DNA of 64,000 nt from the NCBI GenBank assembly GCA_020247305.1, contig JADCJE010000097.1:1-64000 (forward strand), given 5' to 3'. The position numbers were made by a program, and so were the translations under genes. Shown in pieces: positions 45,395 to 56,477 of this stretch. Below the pieces are notes generated by a model that was given only the letters and a program-made list of their open reading frames with translations, was not told the origin of the DNA and ran no database searches. Position 1 is the stretch's first letter; the number at the start of each line of letters is the position of its first letter. Source of the DNA: Phycisphaerales bacterium. GTDB taxonomy: Bacteria; Planctomycetota; UBA1135; UBA2386.

Positions 45395-45744
45395 GGAGCG
45401 GCCTCCCCGGTGACCGCGGCGCCGAGCCACCGCAGGTATGCCGGCAAGCCGTCGGCGACGGTGAGTTCGAGCACTTCGGGCACTTCGTAGGGGTGCAGCG
45501 CGACGAGGCGCTGGCGCAGGGCCTCGGTGCGCGCGCGGGTGGTCTTGGCCACGAGCAGCAGTTCCTCGGCCGCGTCGACGCGGCCCTGCCATTGGAAGTA
45601 CGAGCGCACACCGGGCAGCACGTTGACGCAGGCGCAGAGGCGTTCCGCGACGACGGCCTGCGCGAGGTCGTGCGCCCCGAGGCTGCCGGCGCGCCCGGCG
45701 GCAGCGGGCGCCGTGCACAGGACGACGACCGCGTCGGCGGTCAC
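45391..45744 (-). CDS. cutA: CutA divalent-cation tolerance protein
   Basis: Small trimeric cytoplasmic protein of 117 residues, standard length. GTG 45744 overlaps the phosphoesterase stop (GTGA). Conserved features are LAQAVVAERLCACVNVLPGVRSYFQWQG near 27-54, EELLLVAKTTRARTEAL near 59-75 and LHPYEVPEVLELTVADGLPAYLRWL near 83-107. CutA binds Cu2+ in vitro, but its cellular role is unresolved. Being in the middle of a tight gene series with a transporter, it could be co-regulated, though no metal-responsive site is visible. Confidence 0.95.
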   Translation of the reverse strand: MTADAVVVLCTAPAAAGRAGSLGAHDLAQAVVAERLCACVNVLPGVRSYFQWQGRVDAAEELLLVAKTTRARTEALRQRLVALHPYEVPEVLELTVADGLPAYLRWLGAAVTGEAAP

Positions 45745-46490
45745 CGGCCGCGCCCCAGACGGCTGGCCAGCAGCGGGTCGAGGCCGACCGCCAGGATCTT
45801 GGCCTGCGTGCGCTGGAAGTCGTAGGCCACGCGGTGGATCTCGACGCGCCCGTCGTTGACGACCGCGAACGAGGCGCGCGTGTCGCCGTCGCGCGGCTGA
45901 CCGACGCTGCCGACGTTGACGATGCACGGCCCGTCCAGATCGAACGAGCGCAGTTCGTCGCTGGCGTAGGTGAAGCGGTGGTCGACGCCGTGCACGCCCG
46001 GCCAATGCGTGTGGCCGACGAAGCACGGCCGGTCGAGCAACGCGAAGATCTGGCGCATCTTCTCGGGCTCCTGGAAGCCGTCGCTCTTCAGCACGTACTC
46101 CATCACGGGGTCGCGTGGCGAACCGTGCACGAACAGGTAGCCGTGGTCCGCCATTCGCTCGGGCAGGCCGCGCAGGAACTCCCACGCGCGCCGGCGCCCG
46201 GGCCGCAGCAGCGACGGCTTGAGGCGGGCGCGCGCGTAGCGCAGCGCCTGCTGCGCCAGCAGGTTGAAGTCGTCGAGCTCGTGGAACAGGCCCCAGTCGT
46301 GGTTGCCGCGGATCGTCCACTTGCACCGCGCCATCACCAGCCGCGTCACCGGCAGCGGATCCGGGCCGTAGCCGACCACGTCGCCCAGGCACACGACCTC
46401 GGGCACGCCGAGCTGGTCGATGCGCGCGAAGACCGCCTCGACGGCTTCGAGGTTGGCGTGCAGGTCGGAGACGACGGCGAACGCGGTCAT
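45741..46490 (-). CDS. Calcineurin-like metallophosphoesterase (YfcE/MJ0936-like)
   Basis: Binuclear metallophosphoesterase of 249 residues from ATG 46490, which overlaps the nrnA stop (ATGA). Metal motifs in order are SDLHANLEA (8-16), GDVVGYGPDP (near 38), GNHDWG (near 61), HGSPRD (near 122) and GHTHWPG (near 158). GYGPDP is typical of the diadenosine tetraphosphatase/phosphodiesterase-like subfamily. With NrnA next door a nucleotide-turnover role is plausible (inference). Confidence 0.93.
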   Translation of the reverse strand: MTAFAVVSDLHANLEAVEAVFARIDQLGVPEVVCLGDVVGYGPDPLPVTRLVMARCKWTIRGNHDWGLFHELDDFNLLAQQALRYARARLKPSLLRPGRRRAWEFLRGLPERMADHGYLFVHGSPRDPVMEYVLKSDGFQEPEKMRQIFALLDRPCFVGHTHWPGVHGVDHRFTYASDELRSFDLDGPCIVNVGSVGQPRDGDTRASFAVVNDGRVEIHRVAYDFQRTQAKILAVGLDPLLASRLGRGR

Positions 46491-47479
46491 CGCGCCCTTG
46501 TCGGCAGCGCCGCGACGGCCTGCTGCACCGCCGCCTCGATCGCCGCCTCGGCCGCGGCGAGCGGCATCTTCATCGTCGCGCCGGCCGCCTTCTTGTGGCC
46601 GCCGCCGCCGAACGCCGCGACGATCGCCTGCACGTCGACGTCGCCACGGGCTCGCAGCGAGCACTTCACGGCGCCGTCGAAGCGCTCCTTGAGCAGCGCC
46701 ACGACCTCGACGCCTTCGATCGAGCGCAGCGGGTCGAGCACGGCGTCGGTGTCGAAGTCGGCGCGGCCGGCGCGCTCCATCAGCGCCTTGTCGAGGCTGG
46801 CGATCGCCAGCTTGCCGTCCAAGCGCAGTCGGTGCCGGCCAAGCATGTCGGCCAGCAGGGCGGCGCTGTCGGGGTGGTTGCGCCGGTACATCGCGTCGTA
46901 GATGCGGCTGCCGTCGACGCCGCTGGCGACGAGTTCGCCGGCCATGGCGAAGACCTCGGCGTCGGCGTTGCTGTAGCGGAACCAACCGGTGTCGGCGACG
47001 AGCGACAGGAAGACGCCTTCCGCCGCGGCGGCGCCGAGCGGAACGCCGAGTTCGCGGTAGAGGCGGCGCACGAGCGCGCCGGTCGCGGCGGCCTTGGCGT
47101 CGACGTAGCAGACCGTGCCGTCGCCCTGTTCGCTGCCGACGTGGTGGTCGATGACTGCGATCGTCGGCCGCTGCTGCGCGAGCCGCTGACCGAGCACGCC
47201 GACGCGGGACAGCTGGCAGCAGTCGAGCAGCACCACCACGTCGAAGCCCGGCAGCTGTTCCTCGGCCCGCGCGTGCTGGAACGGCGTGTGGCGCAGCAGG
47301 AAGTCGAACGACTTGCCGACCGGGTCGGGATTGACGATCGCGACCTCCTGGCCGAGGGCCCGCAGCAGGTGGTAAAGGGCCGTTTGCGCGCCGAGGCAAT
47401 CGCCGTCGGGATTCTCATGGCCGGTGAGGAGGAACCGCTGCTTGCGCCGCAGGAAGTCGAGGAACGTGGCCACGGGCAC
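46487..47479 (-). CDS. nrnA: DHH/DHHA1 nanoRNase and pAp phosphatase
   Basis: Cytoplasmic Mn-dependent phosphoesterase of 330 residues; homologues degrade nanoRNAs (2-5 nt) and dephosphorylate pAp. Metal motif GHENPDGDCLGA at 20-31, DCCQLSRVG near 90, the DHH motif VIDHHVGSE near 112 and the DHHA1 closing GGGHKKAAGATM near 293. GTG 47479 is the likely start. The following metallophosphoesterase overlaps by ATGA; 31 bases separate it from the upstream amidohydrolase. Confidence 0.92.
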   Translation of the reverse strand: MPVATFLDFLRRKQRFLLTGHENPDGDCLGAQTALYHLLRALGQEVAIVNPDPVGKSFDFLLRHTPFQHARAEEQLPGFDVVVLLDCCQLSRVGVLGQRLAQQRPTIAVIDHHVGSEQGDGTVCYVDAKAAATGALVRRLYRELGVPLGAAAAEGVFLSLVADTGWFRYSNADAEVFAMAGELVASGVDGSRIYDAMYRRNHPDSAALLADMLGRHRLRLDGKLAIASLDKALMERAGRADFDTDAVLDPLRSIEGVEVVALLKERFDGAVKCSLRARGDVDVQAIVAAFGGGGHKKAAGATMKMPLAAAEAAIEAAVQQAVAALPTRAR

Positions 47480-47510: not shown

Positions 47511-48701
47511 TCAATCTCCCGGCGCATTCGCGACCCGTCGACCGCCGCAGACGACCGCCAGCGTCGGGAGTTCGCCGTGCACGAACGCCGCCAGCGTCGC
47601 CTCGGGCGTCGCCAGCGCGGGCACGACCAGCAAGTCCGCGCGACCGCCCGGCCGCAGGCGACCGGCGCCACGCAGTCCGAGGCTGACAGCGCCGTGCGTC
47701 GTCGCCATCGCGAGCAGTTCGGACGGCGCGAGACCCGGCCACATGCGCGCCGCGCGCGCGAGTTCGGCGCGCATCGACAGGCCGTCGTTGCTGGCCGCCG
47801 AATCGGTGCCCAGCGCCACGGGGATGCCCGCCGCGAGCCAGCGCACGACCGGCGGCGGCGTGCGCCGGAAGTACGCGATCGTGCCGGGGCAGACGGCGAT
47901 CGACGCGCCGCTCGCCGCGATGCGCGCCGTGTCACCGCGCTCGAGTTCCTGGCAATGGACCAGCTGCGTGCCGGCGCGCAGCGCGCCGACGCGCCCGAGC
48001 CAGCGCACCGCGCCGATGCCTGGCGGCCGGAAGCCGGCCGGCAGACGCCCCAAGCGCTGCAGCAGGTCGCGAAACGGGCCCCTACCGGTGCGCAGGAACT
48101 CCTGCTCCTCCGGCAGTTCGGCACAGTGCACGGCGAGGTGGCGCGACTTGGCGGCGGCGGCCGCGAAGAGCGCCGCCGAGACCGAGTACGGCGCATGCGG
48201 CGACAACCCTGGCAGCATCTTGCCCTGTCCGGCGCGCCAGCGCTCGCGCACCAGCGTGCGCGCCTCGCGGGTTCCGAGGTGGAAGCCGGTGAGTTCGCGA
48301 TAGCTGCGCGATCGTGCGCGCGCGCGCGCGAGTTCGGCCGCCGCCCGGCCGGTGGCGTCGATGTCGCCGACCGCCGTGGCGCCGCCGGCGAGCAGGTCGG
48401 TGATCGCCCGGCGCAGTTGCGCGCGTTCGTCTGCCGGGGTCGCAGCACTGCGCGCCGCCATCACGGCGCCGACCCAGGCCAGGAAGTCGCGTTCGGGGCG
48501 CGGCAGCGGCGCAATCTGCAGGTGCGCGTGCGCGTTGACCAGCGCCGGCAGGACGGCAACCGCGTCGACGGGCTCGGTGCGGGCCAGCGCGACGAGGCGA
48601 CCGTCGGCGCGCCATGCGACGGTGCGGTCGCGCAACCATGCGCCGGGAGCCAGCGCGACGAAGCGGGCGGCAATGCCGCCGCCCGCGGCGGCACGGCTCA
48701 C
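47511..48701 (-). CDS. Amidohydrolase (ATZ/TRZ-type deaminase)
   Basis: Metal-dependent hydrolase of 396 residues. GTG 48701 overlaps the stop of the Gly-rich lipoprotein gene (GTGA). Motifs follow the amidohydrolase superfamily: NAHAHLQ near 60, GLSPHAPYSVS near 158, HCAEL near 189, HCQELER near 237, CPGTIAYF near 257 and LGTDSAASNDGL near 285. The last two motifs fit cytosine/aminofutalosine deaminase-like subgroups rather than HutI or HutF. Substrate unknown. Coupling to an exported Gly-rich lipoprotein is unexpected. Confidence 0.86.
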   Translation of the reverse strand: MSRAAAGGGIAARFVALAPGAWLRDRTVAWRADGRLVALARTEPVDAVAVLPALVNAHAHLQIAPLPRPERDFLAWVGAVMAARSAATPADERAQLRRAITDLLAGGATAVGDIDATGRAAAELARARARSRSYRELTGFHLGTREARTLVRERWRAGQGKMLPGLSPHAPYSVSAALFAAAAAKSRHLAVHCAELPEEQEFLRTGRGPFRDLLQRLGRLPAGFRPPGIGAVRWLGRVGALRAGTQLVHCQELERGDTARIAASGASIAVCPGTIAYFRRTPPPVVRWLAAGIPVALGTDSAASNDGLSMRAELARAARMWPGLAPSELLAMATTHGAVSLGLRGAGRLRPGGRADLLVVPALATPEATLAAFVHGELPTLAVVCGGRRVANAPGD

Positions 48702-51445
48702 GTCCGGGCGCGGACGCGGAGCGCCTTGACCACGAGGTCCGGGAACGTCGTGCGGTCGTAGCGCAGTTCGAAGCGGAAGCCGGTCACCGAGTCCTGCTGG
48801 ATGCCCGGACCCGCGCCGGTGCCGACGCCCTCGCGCCACGGCTTGATCGTGCCGGATATCGGCGTGATGCCGTCCTGGGCGATGCGCGCGCCCTGGAAGC
48901 GGATCGAGACGCCATCCAGCGCGAGGTTGTTGGCCTTGCTCGTGCCGACAGCGCCCGTGTCCGTGAAGGTCACGGTCGGCAGCGGACCGGCGTCGTCCGG
49001 ATCGACGTCGAGCTCGTAGCGCAGCCACGTCGGCGGGAACAGGCGCCCCGTCGAGTACCAGCGCGACACGTCGCCCGAGAGCAGGTCGCGGTCGGTCAGC
49101 GTGCCGGCGTTCGCGCCGGCGTTGTAGGACGGCACGGTCCCGACCGGGCCGTTGAAGGTCACCGAACCGCCGGCTTCCAACCGGTAGAAGCCGGACGAAC
49201 CAGCGCCACCCTGGGCCTGCACATTGAGCTGCGTCGGGGCCAGCGCGGTCACGATGCTGCCGACGCGCGAACCGGTCGACCCGCTCATGTCGAGCAGGCC
49301 GCGCACGGTCACGTCGCGCGCCGACTGCAGCAGTACCGAACCGCCGGAACCGCCGCCGCCAGGCGACGAGATGCCCCAATCGATGTCCTGCGCCGCCGAA
49401 ACGGTCGACAGGTTGTCGCCGGTGATCAGCACGCCGCGCCCGCCGCGGGCAAGCACCTGCCCGGTCGAGTCCAGCACCACCGTGCCGCCGGCGCGGAAGG
49501 CGATCGCGCCGCCGCCGCCGGTGCCGCCATGGCCGGCGATGTAGTCGTCCGCGAACACCGTGGCGACGCCGAACGTGTGGCTGCCGCCGCCACCGCCGCC
49601 CGAACCGCCCACCACGAAGTGGTCGAGCGACTGGTAGTTCGACGGCGGCGACACCGGCGGGTACGGGAACAAGCTGAACTGCAGACCGGCAACGGCGAGG
49701 GCGCCGTTGTTCGGTTGCGTGATGGCCGGCGCTGGAATCGACGGCGTCGACGGCTGACCGCCGGCGAGCCGGAAGCCACCACCGCTGCCACCGGGCGAGA
49801 ACTCGTCGTGGAACGTGAGGGTGGTGCCGGTGATGAACGGGGCCGCCGCAGCGGCCGCCGTGCCACCAACCGGCCGCTCGGCGGCGCCGCGGCCGCCGGT
49901 GTTGGCGACGTTGCCGAGGTAGGCATGGGTCGCGACGACGCGGACGTCCTGGCCGTTCTGGCCGCGGTTGAGCGCTCCAGCCGGCGTCGCGCCGGCAGGG
50001 CATTCGTTGCCGCCAGCACCGCCCGACCCGCCGCCGCAGCCACCCGCACCACCGGCCTGGCCGGGAACGATGACGGCGGTGCCGACGCCACCGCGCGAAT
50101 CGAACGACGAGATGCGCTGGCCGGCGAGCGGACCGGTCGTCGGGACCGTTGCCGGCATGTCCGCCGCATTGAGGTCGATCGTGCCGCGGATGTCGACGCG
50201 GCCGCGCACCGAGATGCGCGGCGGCGTCGCGCCGCGGAAGCGCAGCGTCTGGCCCTCCGCCAGCACGAAGTCGGTGAAGAAGAAGCGGCCGTCGGTGACG
50301 GCGAACGACACGCCATCGGGCGTGTTCGACGCCGGAATGACGATGCCGCCCGCCTGATCGAGGTTCCACTCGAAGACGCCGCCCCCGAGCGGCGTGCCGA
50401 AGTTGGCGTTGAAGGAACCGTGGCGGCCATCGCCGCCGATCAGGCCGGCGCGCGCGCCGTTGCTCCACGTGCCACCGGAGACCAGCGGATCCTGGCGGGC
50501 GTCGTTGGCGAACGACTCGTCGAGGTCGAGGTCGACCGAGACGGCCGCACGGGTGATCAAGTCGAACTCCGCCGGCGTCGCCGGGCGGCCGGCGAGGTCG
50601 CGCAGGTCCGCCGCGACGATCACGCTGATGCAGGAGTTGCCCGGCAGTTCGATCGACGGCCGGAAGGTCACGACGGTCACGTCGGCCTCGCCGACGCGCT
50701 GCGTCGACAGGACCGGCAGGCCTTCGAGCGCCAGGCCCTCGGCGTCGCGGTCGCAGGCGCCGCTGAGCAGCGTGCCACGCACGAGCACGCGGATCGGGGA
50801 CGTGGCGCCGAGCGGCAACTGCAGCGGCGTGGTGTCGATCAGCTCGGAGAAGCGCAGCACGATCGTCGGCTCCAGTTCAACGCCGGTCGCGATTGTCGGC
50901 GACAGGAGCTCGACGGTGGGCGGCTGCTGGTTCTCGTCGAGGATGCCGAGCGTAGCGCGGATCGTGCAGTTGAACTCCTGCTGCAGCGTGTCACCGGACA
51001 GGTTGCGCACGCCGAACGCCGCACTGGCGCCGCCGGCGATCGAGATGATGTAGCTCTCGTCGCGGGCGAAGCCGAAGGTGGTGACGCCATTGGCCGTCGA
51101 CACCCGGGGAGCGAACGTGACTTCGCTGCCGACGACGAGCAGGTCGCCATCCGGCTGGACGCCGGTCGCGGTCCGGATCGAGATGCTGGCGCCGTTGATC
51201 GAGGCGGGATCGACCGCATCGGAGAACTTGAAGCGCAGGCGCTCGTTCTCGGCGATCTCCGTCACCGCGCAGCCTGACTGCGAGCAGCCGAGGTTGCAGC
51301 TGATGATGCAGAAGGGCGCGCCATCGAGGCAGCGGATCCGCAGGTCGTTGGTCGACGTCGACCCGCCGCCCGAGCAGCTCGGCAGCAGCGCGAGGGCTGT
51401 GACGAACGAGCCCGTGAGCAGGAAGGAAGCTGGGACGTTGCGCAT
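48698..51445 (-). CDS. Large Gly-rich surface lipoprotein, paralog 1
   Basis: Predicted lipoprotein of 915 residues with lipobox LLPSC at residues 20-24. A Cys cluster SCNLGCSQSGC follows near 49-59. Two Ig-like (Big_5/SbsA-type) domains occupy about 60-300 (for example LRFKFSDAVDPASINGASISIRTA). A beta-helix-like segment starts near 390 with VTDGRFFFTDF and RGRVDIRGTIDLN, followed by Gly-rich runs (GGAGGCGGGSGGAGGN, GGSGGGGGGSHTFG) alternating with NGQDVRVVATHAY and GGRG motifs, then a C-terminal domain ending in GFRFELRYDRT. Architecture and motifs match the gene upstream, so these are paralogs. An adhesin or surface-layer role is inference. Confidence 0.85.
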   Translation of the reverse strand: MRNVPASFLLTGSFVTALALLPSCSGGGSTSTNDLRIRCLDGAPFCIISCNLGCSQSGCAVTEIAENERLRFKFSDAVDPASINGASISIRTATGVQPDGDLLVVGSEVTFAPRVSTANGVTTFGFARDESYIISIAGGASAAFGVRNLSGDTLQQEFNCTIRATLGILDENQQPPTVELLSPTIATGVELEPTIVLRFSELIDTTPLQLPLGATSPIRVLVRGTLLSGACDRDAEGLALEGLPVLSTQRVGEADVTVVTFRPSIELPGNSCISVIVAADLRDLAGRPATPAEFDLITRAAVSVDLDLDESFANDARQDPLVSGGTWSNGARAGLIGGDGRHGSFNANFGTPLGGGVFEWNLDQAGGIVIPASNTPDGVSFAVTDGRFFFTDFVLAEGQTLRFRGATPPRISVRGRVDIRGTIDLNAADMPATVPTTGPLAGQRISSFDSRGGVGTAVIVPGQAGGAGGCGGGSGGAGGNECPAGATPAGALNRGQNGQDVRVVATHAYLGNVANTGGRGAAERPVGGTAAAAAAPFITGTTLTFHDEFSPGGSGGGFRLAGGQPSTPSIPAPAITQPNNGALAVAGLQFSLFPYPPVSPPSNYQSLDHFVVGGSGGGGGGSHTFGVATVFADDYIAGHGGTGGGGAIAFRAGGTVVLDSTGQVLARGGRGVLITGDNLSTVSAAQDIDWGISSPGGGGSGGSVLLQSARDVTVRGLLDMSGSTGSRVGSIVTALAPTQLNVQAQGGAGSSGFYRLEAGGSVTFNGPVGTVPSYNAGANAGTLTDRDLLSGDVSRWYSTGRLFPPTWLRYELDVDPDDAGPLPTVTFTDTGAVGTSKANNLALDGVSIRFQGARIAQDGITPISGTIKPWREGVGTGAGPGIQQDSVTGFRFELRYDRTTFPDLVVKALRVRART

Positions 51446-51464
51446 GGGTAGGGCTGGGGCGGAA

Positions 51465-54434
51465 TCAGTAGCGGAAGACGACGCGGACCTCGTCGACGGT
51501 GATCACGGCGCCGAGCGCGTGGTCGGCGATCAGCCGGAAGCGGAAGCCGTTGAGCGAGTCGGCGTCGATGCCGGTCACGCTCAGGTTGCTGCGGACCGCC
51601 TGCCGCCAGACGCCGACCTGTTCGACGACGCCCGTCGAGACATTCAGTTGCGCGGCCTGGAACAGGGCGCGGACCGGCTGGCCTTCCTCGGCGCGCAGCG
51701 GCGACACGGCCGTATCGTCGCTGAGGACGAACGGCGTGCCATCGACGGCGCCGCGGATCTCGTAGCGCACGAACTCGGGTCCGAAGATCTGCTGCGTCGA
51801 GTAGTACTTCGACTGGCAGAGGATCAATGCGTCGCGCTCGGTCAGCGCGGCGACGTTGTCGGCGGACGCCGCCGGCAACATGCCCGACAGCGCTGCCAGC
51901 GCGGGCGTCGTCGGCGCTTCCAGGCGCACGAAACCTGCTGCACCGTTGCCGCCTTGGATCTGCACCGATGCGCCCGCCGGATACGCCGGCGTGCTGTTGC
52001 CGCGCTGGAACAGGCCGCCCGTGCCGCCGCGGACGTCGATCAGGCCGCCGGACGTCTGGAAGGCGTTGCCCGCCTGCAGCACGACCGAACCGCCCGAGCC
52101 GCCGCCGGCGACGCAGGCTTGTTGGGTCGACGTCGTGCCGGTCGAGTTCGCCGCCGCGCCGCCGTTCGCCAGCACCTTGGCCGCAGGCGCGACGGAGAGC
52201 GAGCGCCCCGCGCGCAGCGAGATGGCGCCACCGCCACCACCACCGCCGCAACCGGCGATGAAGCGGTCGAGCGTGACGACAAGCGACAGGCAGGGATGGC
52301 TACCGCCACCGCCGCCGCCGGAACCGCCGACGAGGAAGTGCAGCGACGACGGCTGCGAACCAGGCGTCGTCGGGACCGGGAACAGCTGGACGGCCGTGCC
52401 GCCGGCAGCGCTCGGCCCCATCGCATAGGTCAACGGCGGAGTGGGGACGCCGACGATGCGGAACGTGGAGCCGGCCGTCGGGGTTGTTGCCCACGCCGTG
52501 TCGACAGTGAACGTCGCGTTGTTCGTGCCGCCATTGCTGACCACCGTCCGGATCTGCCCGATGCCGGGGCCGGAGAGCACTTCCAGGGTGCGACCGGCGT
52601 ACCGGCTCGGGAACCAGGGCCAGGCGGCGTTGCCGACGCCGGCGGCCGACGGCGTCACCGTCGTCGCCGTGGCACTCGCGACCACGAGGCCGGCGAGACC
52701 GGGTTCGAGGTGGTTGTTCGTGACCACCGTGCCGGCCTGACCCGCGGCGAGGTACCCGCCGCCACCACCGCCGGCGGAAGCCATCGGCGTGTACACGACG
52801 CCGGTCAGCGAGGCGTAGTAGATCGCCGAGTTGAGGCCCGACGCGGGGTAGCAGGTCGAGCCACGGCCGCCGCTGTTGAGCACGCTCGTCGCGTAGGCGT
52901 GACCGGCCTGCACGCGCGCGTCCTGGCCGTTGACGCCGTTGTTGGCGGCGGTGGCGCCGGTCGTGGTCGCCTGGGCCTGCGAGACCTTGTCACCACCCTT
53001 GCCGCCCGAGCCACCGCCGGCGCCGCCCGTAGCGCCCGGTGAGCCGGTCGTCTGCACGGTCGTCGGCAACGTCGTCGACGCATTGGCGCCGGCGACATCG
53101 ATGTGGCCGAGCACGTCGAGGCGACCGGCGACGGTCAGCTGCGGCGGCCGCGCCCCGACGAACCGGATGCGGGCATCGCTCGGCACGACCATCGTCGTGA
53201 AGAAGAACCGGCCATCCGTCACCGCGATCGGGCTTCCAGTGGTCGTGTTGCTGCCCGGGATGACCGTGGTGTCGGTGTTGAACGTGTAGACGCGTTTGCC
53301 TTCGACCGTGGTCAGCGTGTCCGTGCACAGCGACAGGCTGAACGGGCCGTGGCGACCGTCGCCACCGATCGCCAGGAACGTCGCGTTGCCACCGCTCCAG
53401 ACCGCCGCCGACTGGTCGGCGTCGAGTTGGTCCTCGTTGTTGAACGGCTCGACGACGGATTCTTCGACCTGCGGCACCACCGCCGTACGGAAGGAGAGGG
53501 TCTGCGGCTGCGCCGGCCGGCCCGACAGGTCCGCGACGCCGTCGGTGATGTTGGCCTCGATGCAGACGTTGCCCGGCAGCGCCTGTGTCGGCCGGAACGA
53601 CAGAACGGAAATGCCGCGGGTGGCGTCGAAGTCGAGCACCTGCGTGCCCGAAAGCGTTTGCGGCGGCGAGTTGGGATTGCACTCGAACACGCCGGATCCC
53701 GGCGCGACCTCGCGGTTGCGCCGGATGCTGAACGTGACCGGGCTCTGCGTGCCGCCGAGGAACGGCGTGGCGTCGATGAGCTCGTTGAACTCGATGACGA
53801 TGTCGGTGCTGAGCGGCGCCGACCCGATCTGGGCCGGCGATGGCACGACGAGTTCGCCACGCGGGGCGACGCCGTTGAGGTCGATGATGCCGAGCGAGGA
53901 GCGCAGCGTGCAGGAGAGGGTCTTGTCGAACGCGCGGCCCGACGTGCTGCGCACGACCGAGGTCTGCTCGGTCCCGCCCAGGATCGTCATCGTGTACGTC
54001 TCGCCGGACGTGAAGCCGAAGAACGTCTGTCCGCCAGAGATCGACAGCGACGGCAGGAATCGGACGGTGCGCCCTTCGACGACGAACTCGCCGACTGGTT
54101 GGCTGCCCGAGGCCGTGCGGAACCGGATCGACGACGACGTCACGGTCGCCGGATCAATCGCCTCGCTGAAGTTCAGGATGACGATCTGGTTCTGGGCGAT
54201 GTCCGATTGCGCGCAGCCGGTGGTGCTGCAACCGAGGTTGCAGCTCTCCAGGCAGATGACGGTGGCACCCGCGACGCCGCAATCGACGCCCGCGCTGCCC
54301 GTCGTCGTGCCGCCGCCCGAGCAGGCCGCAAGGCCGATCCCGGCCAGTAGGAGGACGCTGCCATGCCAGCGCCGACGGACGCCGGCTCCTCCGACGCCAA
54401 CAGGCGCGCCGCGGAGCGAACTGCATACGGACAT
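51465..54434 (-). CDS. Large Gly-rich surface lipoprotein, paralog 2
   Basis: Predicted lipoprotein of 989 residues with a longer N-terminus (from ATG 54434) and lipobox GLAAC at about 34-38. The same order of parts as paralog 1: Cys cluster SCNLGCSTTGC near 62, Ig-like domains (VILNFSEAIDPATVTSSSIRFRTA), VTDGRFFFTTM, AGRLDVLGHIDVAG, Gly-rich GGAGGGSGGKGGD and GGSGGGGGGSHPC, NGQDARVQAGHAY, and a terminal beta-rich domain (GFRFRLIADH). It is longer because of inserted sequence around ATATTVTPSAAG. Gap to paralog 1 is 19 bases. No promoter is clear in the 380 bases upstream. Confidence 0.85.
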   Translation of the reverse strand: MSVCSSLRGAPVGVGGAGVRRRWHGSVLLLAGIGLAACSGGGTTTGSAGVDCGVAGATVICLESCNLGCSTTGCAQSDIAQNQIVILNFSEAIDPATVTSSSIRFRTASGSQPVGEFVVEGRTVRFLPSLSISGGQTFFGFTSGETYTMTILGGTEQTSVVRSTSGRAFDKTLSCTLRSSLGIIDLNGVAPRGELVVPSPAQIGSAPLSTDIVIEFNELIDATPFLGGTQSPVTFSIRRNREVAPGSGVFECNPNSPPQTLSGTQVLDFDATRGISVLSFRPTQALPGNVCIEANITDGVADLSGRPAQPQTLSFRTAVVPQVEESVVEPFNNEDQLDADQSAAVWSGGNATFLAIGGDGRHGPFSLSLCTDTLTTVEGKRVYTFNTDTTVIPGSNTTTGSPIAVTDGRFFFTTMVVPSDARIRFVGARPPQLTVAGRLDVLGHIDVAGANASTTLPTTVQTTGSPGATGGAGGGSGGKGGDKVSQAQATTTGATAANNGVNGQDARVQAGHAYATSVLNSGGRGSTCYPASGLNSAIYYASLTGVVYTPMASAGGGGGGYLAAGQAGTVVTNNHLEPGLAGLVVASATATTVTPSAAGVGNAAWPWFPSRYAGRTLEVLSGPGIGQIRTVVSNGGTNNATFTVDTAWATTPTAGSTFRIVGVPTPPLTYAMGPSAAGGTAVQLFPVPTTPGSQPSSLHFLVGGSGGGGGGSHPCLSLVVTLDRFIAGCGGGGGGGAISLRAGRSLSVAPAAKVLANGGAAANSTGTTSTQQACVAGGGSGGSVVLQAGNAFQTSGGLIDVRGGTGGLFQRGNSTPAYPAGASVQIQGGNGAAGFVRLEAPTTPALAALSGMLPAASADNVAALTERDALILCQSKYYSTQQIFGPEFVRYEIRGAVDGTPFVLSDDTAVSPLRAEEGQPVRALFQAAQLNVSTGVVEQVGVWRQAVRSNLSVTGIDADSLNGFRFRLIADHALGAVITVDEVRVVFRY

Positions 54435-54814: not shown

Positions 54815-55900
54815 ATGTCCGCGCCTGCCGCTCCACCTGCCGCCGGCCCCCGCCGCGCCGCCGGCCTGCTCGTCACGGTCCTCGCCCTGTGTCTCGCCGT
54901 CGGCGGTGGCGCCGGCTACCAGTTGACGGCCCTGACGCGCACGATCGACGAACTGCGCCGCGACGCCGCCACCGACCGCGCCAGCCTGCAGGAGATCCTC
55001 GGCGAGGTGACCCGCCTGCGGATCGAACAGAGCGCCGGCAGCAAGGGGCCGCAGGCGCTGCTGGAGAAGCTGCGCACCTACGCGCCACTGCTGACCAGCG
55101 CGCGGGTCGCCGAGCCCGACTACCGCAGCGCACAGAAGGAGATGGACGCCATCCTGCGCGCCTTCACCGCAATCGGTCCAGATGCGATGCCGCCGGTGCA
55201 AGATCGCGTCACCGCGCTCGACCCGGCGAAGGACTTCGACGAGCTCAAGCAGTTGCTGCGGGCGACCATCGCGATCGACCGGACGAAGGGCCTCGCGCTG
55301 TACCGCGAGGTGCTGCTCGGCCAGCGACTGCCGTCGCCGCGGCTGCGCTGGTTCGTCGCCAGCGAATTGACCGACATCGACCGGCCGCTGGCGCGCGACC
55401 TGCTGCGCCGCGTCCTGCTCACCGAGTCGAGTCGCGGATTCAATCCGGACTACGCAGCGGCGTTCGAGGGCGCCGTCGTGCCGGATCGCGCGGCGTTGTC
55501 GGCATCGGGCTTCCACAACTACGTGCTGGCCTACGCCCGCACCGACGATGCGCGCACCGACGAGACCTTGCTGATGGTGCTCGGCCGCAGCGAGCACGAC
55601 CGCATGACGGTCCAGGAGTGCATCAAGACGCTGGGCGGCCGTCGCTGCGTCGCCGCGGCGCCGATCATCGAGGGCTTCGTGCGCAAGCCGCCCGGCGGCC
55701 AGGAGGATCCCATCTTCCTCAACCACTGCTACGAAGCGCTCGTCGCCATCCGCGGCGCCGACGCCCGCGCCTTCCTCGAAGCGGAATTGGCGCGCAACCA
55801 GCAGGACCTCGTGGCGAACCGCATCCAGGCGCTGCTGGGCCGCATCGCCGCGGGCAACGCCGCGCCCAATGTGCCTGCCGCCGGCGGCGCGCCGAAGTGA
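54815..55900 (+). CDS. Membrane-anchored coiled-coil and helical-repeat protein
   Basis: I do not recognise a family. The 361-residue product has one membrane segment at about 14-37 (GLLVTVLALCLAVGGGAGY) with no clear cleavage site, then a coiled coil at about 38-70 (LTRTIDELRRDAATDRASLQEILGEVTRL), then alpha-helical repeats to about 345 (for example PRLRWFVASELTDIDRPLARDLLRRVLL) that look HEAT-like. The C-terminus is a short Ala/Pro tail. It probably sits in the periplasm as a scaffold. It is convergent with the DUF4863 gene. Confidence 0.72.
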   Translation: MSAPAAPPAAGPRRAAGLLVTVLALCLAVGGGAGYQLTALTRTIDELRRDAATDRASLQEILGEVTRLRIEQSAGSKGPQALLEKLRTYAPLLTSARVAEPDYRSAQKEMDAILRAFTAIGPDAMPPVQDRVTALDPAKDFDELKQLLRATIAIDRTKGLALYREVLLGQRLPSPRLRWFVASELTDIDRPLARDLLRRVLLTESSRGFNPDYAAAFEGAVVPDRAALSASGFHNYVLAYARTDDARTDETLLMVLGRSEHDRMTVQECIKTLGGRRCVAAAPIIEGFVRKPPGGQEDPIFLNHCYEALVAIRGADARAFLEAELARNQQDLVANRIQALLGRIAAGNAAPNVPAAGGAPK

Positions 55901-56006: not shown

Positions 56007-56477
56007 TCAGTCCGCCAGGAACTCGATGGCGCCGGCGGGGAGGAAGTACAGGATCAGCATCTCGCCACCGCGCACGGTCGGCACGTGCACCGAGCCCTTG
56101 CCGTAGACGACCCAGCCGGTGGGCTTGCCGTCGAAGCGCGGCTCGCCCTTGGTCGCCATGCAGAGGTCGAGTTCGCCGTTGGGGTGGCGGTGGCGCGGGC
56201 CGGGCACGTCCATCAACACGGCGTCGACCGAGAACCCGAGCAGTTCCTTGGCGACGCGGCCGAAGCGGATGCCGTTCGCCGCCTTCGGCAACAGCCACTC
56301 CGAAGCAATGTTGGCGACCGCGGCGGCGCGCAGCGCAGCGACCGCGGCGCCCGCGAACGGCGCCGCGCGCTCGGCCTGCGCGCTCGCGTCGGCGGCGTCG
56401 ACGTCGACCGCGCGCAGGGCCTCGGCGACCGGCCGCAACAGGTCGGTGAACTGCTCCTTCGTCATCGTCTGCGTCAT
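56007..56477 (-). CDS. DUF4863-family cupin-like protein
   Basis: Small protein of 156 residues resembling DUF4863, a family whose studied member is 4-hydroxylaminobenzoate lyase of nitroarene degraders. The family pattern is visible: GIRFGRVAKELLGFSVDAVLMD near 67-89, GPRHRHPNGELDL near 91-103 with two candidate metal His, GWVVYGKGSVHVPTVRGG near 117-134 and LPAGAIEFL at the end. The N-terminal helical half is divergent. The actual substrate cannot be inferred from mogA upstream. The gene starts 16 bases after the mogA stop. Confidence 0.65.
   Translation of the reverse strand: MTQTMTKEQFTDLLRPVAEALRAVDVDAADASAQAERAAPFAGAAVAALRAAAVANIASEWLLPKAANGIRFGRVAKELLGFSVDAVLMDVPGPRHRHPNGELDLCMATKGEPRFDGKPTGWVVYGKGSVHVPTVRGGEMLILYFLPAGAIEFLAD

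Follow-up and report, generated by a model that had tools for sequence, protein, structure and literature searches.

A tandem pair of glycine-rich lipoproteins at a conserved planctomycete locus: candidate components of the cell envelope

The proteins that build the outer surface of planctomycetes are poorly known. Described proteins that invite comparison with those considered here include glycine-rich polyproline II (PPII) bundles, known from the snow flea antifreeze protein, phage S16 gp38 and ALK/LTK (PMC13243192), and S-layer proteins built of immunoglobulin (Ig)-like arrays, such as SbsC and the S-layer of Deinococcus radiodurans (PMC10120038). In this study, we describe two adjacent genes, A and B, on a stretch of 64,000 nucleotides (the window) of contig JADCJE010000097.1 from the Phycisphaerales bacterium assembly GCA_020247305.1 (here genome G000, contig C217; 4.93 Mb, 93% complete). 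We read A and B as two copies, since specialised, of an ancient lipoprotein that is a constitutive part of the envelope in this planctomycete lineage and may serve as a surface stalk or coat unit. We hold the case for this reading to be evenly balanced; it is the most economical reading of the paralogy, the locus conserved throughout the class, the Cys pairs, the core model and the exchange of the core as a module.

The lipoprotein pair and its cysteine pattern

A and B lie in tandem on the minus strand, 19 bases apart (Table 1). Their products align over the whole length, with 39% identity in the N-terminal part (BLASTP E 5e-88) and 38% in the C-terminal part (E 2e-22), which is far above the level of chance or composition. 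Each has a signal peptide that ends in a lipobox Cys and would thereby qualify as a lipoprotein and signal peptidase II substrate. Full-length alignment and lipoboxes bear out the original prediction of tandem paralogous Gly-rich lipoproteins. The lipobox Cys is found in nearly all relatives, being aligned in 92% of 72 of them. The layout of A and B is alike. After the lipobox come a Cys cluster and two Ig-like domains, then the core, rich in Gly and some 480 residues long, and the chain ends in a beta-sandwich. The Ig-like domains match Big_5 (PF13205) with 39.1 and 45 bits in the two proteins, at a gathering score of 23.6. The motifs SCNLGCSxxGC, VTDGRFFF, GGSGGGGGGSH and NGQDxRVxAxHAY are common to both proteins in identical order, as predicted, but GRLDVxGxIDxxG, also ascribed to both, fits A only (GRLDVLGHIDVAG), B reading GRVDIRGTIDLNA. 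Likewise SCNLGC, thought to follow the lipid anchor directly, lies 26-27 residues past the lipid Cys.

The Cys cluster is present as claimed, and the conserved set exceeds the motif. In a set of 72 proteins, eight Cys other than the lipid Cys show a conservation of at least 96%, five in the head (C52, C61, C65, C69 and C74 in A), one at the end of the first Ig-like domain (C175) and two in the second (C252, C291). Within family f1, to which G000 belongs, C52 and C61 are lost jointly in two proteins, and C74 and C175 in one, the B protein of locus L067, which retains C65 and C69. In the relatives examined from families f2, f5 and f8, C65, C69, C74 and C175 are always present, and C52, C61, C252 and C291 are absent. 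Because losses come pairwise, we infer from these small counts four disulfides, C52-C61, C65-C69 (by exclusion), C74-C175 and C252-C291, three of which would staple the membrane-proximal head. In G169, a genome of another class, all eight Cys are absent; its lipoprotein (L119:6743-9439) reads SFNLGRSQ and adjoins an amidohydrolase gene.

The paired losses lend indirect support to the earlier suggestion that the cluster forms disulfides, but neither DsbA nor Thioredoxin_4 nor VKOR was found in G000; its genus likewise yielded no Thioredoxin_4, and no VKOR except in the relative G007. Instead of forming disulfides, the head Cys might bind a metal or an iron-sulfur centre and make A and B metal- or redox-responsive envelope lipoproteins. 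For such a role speak the undetected disulfide-forming enzymes and the fact that C65, C69, C74 and C175 are kept or absent en bloc at class level, which would fit a four-ligand site too. Pairwise loss, as in the L067 protein and in the joint variation of C52 and C61, fits disulfides, however, and the protein is exported; we therefore consider a metal or iron-sulfur site very improbable. Conserved paired Cys are seen in exported proteins of G000 and its genus, despite the missing matches to these enzyme families.

Distribution, locus and duplication history

A three-core profile matches all 33 other f1 genomes analysed, mostly as a tandem pair on one strand. A full-length profile matches 148 of the 154 genomes analysed of the class. 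In a phylum-wide sample of 392 genomes, class members included, matches outside the class are partial and weak and cover only Ig-like or Gly-rich parts, with the one exception of G169 (E 2.8e-61). The named relatives are metagenome-assembled genomes of Planctomycetota or unnamed bacteria, and sequence searches of a plasmid collection and of viral contigs gave no relative. This nearly complete, vertical pattern of inheritance with constant neighbours suits a core part of the envelope better than an accessory adhesin of patchy spread.

In f1 the gene order is a divergent gene with HEAT-like repeats, A, B, an amidohydrolase, an NrnA-like DHH protein, a metallophosphoesterase, CutA and an SLC13 transporter. 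Family f6 keeps this order, except that the transporter and sometimes other genes are missing or undetected, and the amidohydrolase/NrnA block is accompanied by either a single lipoprotein or two of them in f2, f5 and f8. Amidohydrolase or NrnA is close by on the same strand at 48 of 57 loci, one of them in another class; the remaining nine comprise six that end at a contig edge, two core-only clusters and one real exception (L080). The linkage between lipoprotein and amidohydrolase/NrnA is old, since G169 also keeps its lipoprotein beside the amidohydrolase, NrnA lying 5.6 kb further. The HEAT-like gene stands divergently at 26 of the 57 loci and precedes the lipoprotein pair throughout f1 and in part of f6. 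A and B thus combine all features by which we delimit the family, namely the lipobox, the CxLGC...C head, two Ig-like domains, the Gly-rich core and a place next to amidohydrolase/NrnA. The overlap of the amidohydrolase with B noted earlier exists, although it measures just four bases (GTGA, 48698-48701): a long open frame at 47511-50468 hints at a larger one, but its stretch upstream of 48701 is just a second reading frame that stays open because the DNA is GC-rich.

In trees of 72 and 91 proteins, the f1 sequences (except in G015) fall into an A clade and a B clade that mirror each other. The f6 sequences split likewise, but their A and B join one another before joining f1. One duplication before the split of f1 and f6 without later exchange is rejected, as a single A clade fails the approximately unbiased test (p 3.8e-6). 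Either duplication occurred in parallel at the same place, or gene conversion homogenised the copies. The locus duplicates repeatedly, as extra duplications in f8 show; the f8 genome G050, which consists of two contigs, has a tandem pair. Duplication with divergence suggests that A and B may act jointly, e.g. by hetero-assembly.

Two side observations concern the locus. In three f8 genomes (L102, L103, L105) two lipoproteins flank the amidohydrolase rather than standing in tandem. At 56007-56477 the window carries a small gene matching PnbB, a 4-hydroxylaminobenzoate lyase (PF16155, E 6e-28), which is a conserved neighbour in close relatives.

Table 1. Coordinates of the lipoprotein genes, their parts and the neighbouring genes in the window
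Feature	Positions	Strand	Basis or remarks
Gene A, upstream of B; encodes a lipoprotein of 989 aa	51465..54434	-	ATG at 54434, stop at 51465; A-position relatives in f1 and f6
Putative signal peptide of A, lipobox LAAC, lipid Cys C38 (54321-54323)	54324..54434	-	Sequence inspection
Cys head of A, putatively stapled: C52, C61, C65, C69, C74	54213..54281	-	Cys conservation, paired losses
Two Ig-like domains of A with C175, C252, C291	53454..54212	-	Pfam Big_5 E 1.9e-11, two stretches; Cys conservation
Gly-rich core and C-terminal sandwich of A (transferable module)	51468..53453	-	
Insert in the core of A, like part of a phage-like protein on G000:C33	52413..52679	-	38% identity, E 3.8e-6
Gene B, downstream of A; encodes a lipoprotein of 915 aa	48698..51445	-	ATG at 51445, stop at 48698
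Putative signal peptide of B, lipobox LPSC, lipid Cys C24 (51374-51376)	51377..51445	-	Sequence inspection
Cys head of B, putatively stapled: C39, C46, C50, C54, C59	51269..51331	-	
Two Ig-like domains of B with C160, C231, C272	50522..51268	-	Pfam Big_5 E 1.3e-9, two stretches; Ig-like fold matches in PDB
Gly-rich core and C-terminal sandwich of B	48701..50521	-	AlphaFold model; identity to the core on G000:C180
Predicted C-terminal beta-sandwich of B, approximate limits	48701..49081	-	Strands 481-606 of the core model; sub-threshold jelly-roll matches
Amidohydrolase, conserved neighbour	47511..48701	-	GTG start overlaps stop of B; Pfam Amidohydro_1 E 1.1e-31; synteny
NrnA-like DHH/DHHA1 phosphoesterase, conserved neighbour	46487..47479	-	Synteny
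Calcineurin-like phosphoesterase, conserved neighbour	45741..46490	-	Synteny
Divergent neighbour, one N-terminal membrane segment, HEAT-like repeats	54815..55900	+	PF13646 E 3.3e-5, just under cut-off

The glycine-rich core and its exchange between proteins

AlphaFold modelled B with a mean predicted local distance difference test score (pLDDT) of 84.6 and a predicted template modelling score (pTM) of 0.69 (28 sequences), and the core of B alone with pLDDT 89.9 and pTM 0.89 (33 sequences). The core model consists of recurring triplets of short strands with Gly-rich coil between them and of a terminal beta-sandwich, and the sequence has dense GGX-rich runs between the short ordered segments. 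The core is thus predicted with high confidence to form solenoid-like rungs split by Gly-rich segments, an arrangement with no solved match; by analogy it is plausible that the Gly-rich segments pack as PPII bundles. Compared by fold with the PDB, the full B model gave partial Ig-like matches only, all of low TM-score, among them the N-terminal part of the S-layer protein SbsC. The core model matched no chain at E 0.001, the best hit being a phage tailspike (E 0.039, prob 0.14). What stands of the beta-helix-like core in the original prediction are strand triplets resembling solenoid rungs in a confident model; the tailspike match is not significant, and Pfam gave no match to a right-handed parallel beta-helix. 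Among predicted viral structures, five matched the core at E <=0.001 (range 2e-9 to 1e-3), the top ones being PA14-bearing or collagen-like proteins of giant viruses.

Searches of the core against Pfam, NCBIfam and PHROGs returned Big_5 plus one phage family at E 0.01 and nothing more. Against PDB sequences the full profile gave no match, and the core profile hit only single-chain variable fragment (scFv) linkers and chance matches. Features of autotransporters (type V) were not found either: there is no Pfam or NCBIfam profile match, and the modelled chain ends in a short beta-sandwich instead of an outer-membrane beta-barrel. In the literature, we found no paper describing this lipoprotein family. 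The family accordingly appears as uncharacterised as had been supposed, since no family model beyond Big_5 fits, the core is without solved homologue and no known adhesin or autotransporter family turned out to include these proteins.

The core also occurs apart from the lipoproteins. Searching G000 with A revealed, besides A and B, one further core copy on contig C180 and, on C201, a remote lipoprotein of the Big_5/Gly-rich kind. The core on C180 sits on a secreted protein whose kelch-like N-terminus replaces the Cys head and Ig-like domains, and it shares 64% identity with the core of B, as compared to 42% between A and B. Copies with foreign N-termini are scattered in the core tree, some beside A and others beside B, and because they fall at several positions, the core has moved as a module onto other N-termini more than once. 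The C180 copy as a fresh copy of B of the same genome was not supported; it groups with equivalents in other genomes beside the B clade (support 87, not strong).

Further variants of the core were observed. The insert of A, about 90 residues long, resembles part of a kelch-like protein (G000:C33:10144-10395, L007) that is seemingly phage-derived, and none of the further A or B proteins examined showed this pattern. G021, a 10 Mb genome of the same family, has two tandem clusters (L082, L083) off the conserved locus, made of three and two core proteins that lack the Cys head.

Instead of a structural unit, A and B might be a dedicated adhesin pair, sandwich and Gly-rich core binding a given glycan or surface (algal particles, other cells) and the ligands of A and B being different. 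Binding modules are commonly transplanted in the way this core has been onto secreted N-termini, those of kelch type among them, and large variable inserts within core loops would suit such modules, as would the resemblance of the C-terminal sandwich to jelly-roll lectin, carbohydrate-binding module (CBM) 4-2 and Eph ligand-binding folds. This resemblance stays below significance (E 0.25 or worse), however, so that there is no significant lectin or CBM match, and niche adhesins are not usually passed on vertically to almost every member of a lineage at one constant place. We think an adhesin pair unlikely. With slightly more confidence, still tentatively, we suggest that the core represents a fold with no solved example, made of solenoid rungs and packed polyglycine II segments in alternation, that it is an exchangeable surface module on a disulfide-stapled lipoprotein forming a near-universal structural part of the envelope, and that structurally similar proteins exist in giant viruses.

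Proposed role and comparison with known systems

As a stalk or coat unit, A and B would be exported and, as their lipoboxes indicate, lipidated at C38 and C24, respectively. Conservation and paired loss of Cys point to a membrane-proximal head of about 25 residues stapled by C52-C61, C65-C69 and C74-C175 (A numbering), the last of which would tie the head to the first Ig-like domain; C252-C291 would staple the second. The two Ig-like domains, observed as Big_5 matches, may act as a rigid spacer. Beyond them the Gly-rich core is predicted with high confidence to form solenoid-like rungs separated by Gly-rich segments, and the C-terminal beta-sandwich would cap it. The shaft would then be solenoid and polyglycine and the tip jelly-roll-like, the latter perhaps being the likeliest contact for glycans, neighbouring cells or a partner lipoprotein.

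Lipobox, Ig-like spacers and overall architecture suggest a surface location. Alternatively, A and B may be periplasmic structural lipoproteins that join the outer membrane to another envelope layer. A lipobox alone is silent on the membrane side, constitutive conservation would suit such a linker, and so would the conserved divergent neighbour with its membrane segment and HEAT-like repeats. Exposed proteins, though, are where one typically meets tandem Ig-like domains, a Gly-rich core and the sharing of modules with secreted proteins of kelch type, and we regard a periplasmic linker as quite improbable. Several points nevertheless weigh against a surface stalk or coat as outlined above. The architecture does not fix the membrane side, and an outer-membrane lipoprotein could face the periplasm; C252 is lost alone in two sister proteins that keep C291; no DsbA, Thioredoxin_4 or VKOR that could oxidise the disulfides was found in G000; the likeness of the sandwich to jelly-roll lectin or CBM folds stays below significance; and the cytosolic neighbours (amidohydrolase, NrnA, CutA) offer no functional link to a surface coat.

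Kept at a single locus by nearly every genome of the class, with predicted disulfides open to test and a core that is modelled confidently though unsolved, the A/B lipoprotein offers a tangible candidate for a basic component of the planctomycete surface. This core, which no family model fits, would also provide a structural target for Gly-rich solenoid-like proteins.

Compared with known systems, A and B each share with Big_5 proteins two stretches above the Pfam cut-off in the N-terminal half; Big_5 is a generic spacer, however, and the Cys head and 600-aa core lie outside it. A weak Gly-rich match to the N-terminal domain of myxobacterial AgmC (NF047640) occurs in two relatives; membership is rejected at 16.9 bits at best, the cut-off being 275. 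The giant-virus proteins that head the structural matches to the core come from a Bathycoccus virus (A0A7S6NY19), Pandoravirus dulcis (S4VX73) and Orpheovirus (A0A2I2L380), but identity is 14-18% and the query TM-score just 0.24-0.28, and viral contigs hold no relative by sequence. The dense GGX runs of the core recall the polyproline/polyglycine II bundles of the snow flea antifreeze protein, phage S16 gp38, ALK/LTK and PE_PGRS (PMC13243192), from which it differs in having no Pfam sequence match, no PDB fold match and only scFv linkers or chance hits among PDB sequences. Ig-array S-layer proteins likewise carry Ig-like domains on an exported envelope protein, SbsC even with a fold match; A and B differ from them in their putative lipid anchor, in having no more than two Ig-like domains and in the core rich in Gly.

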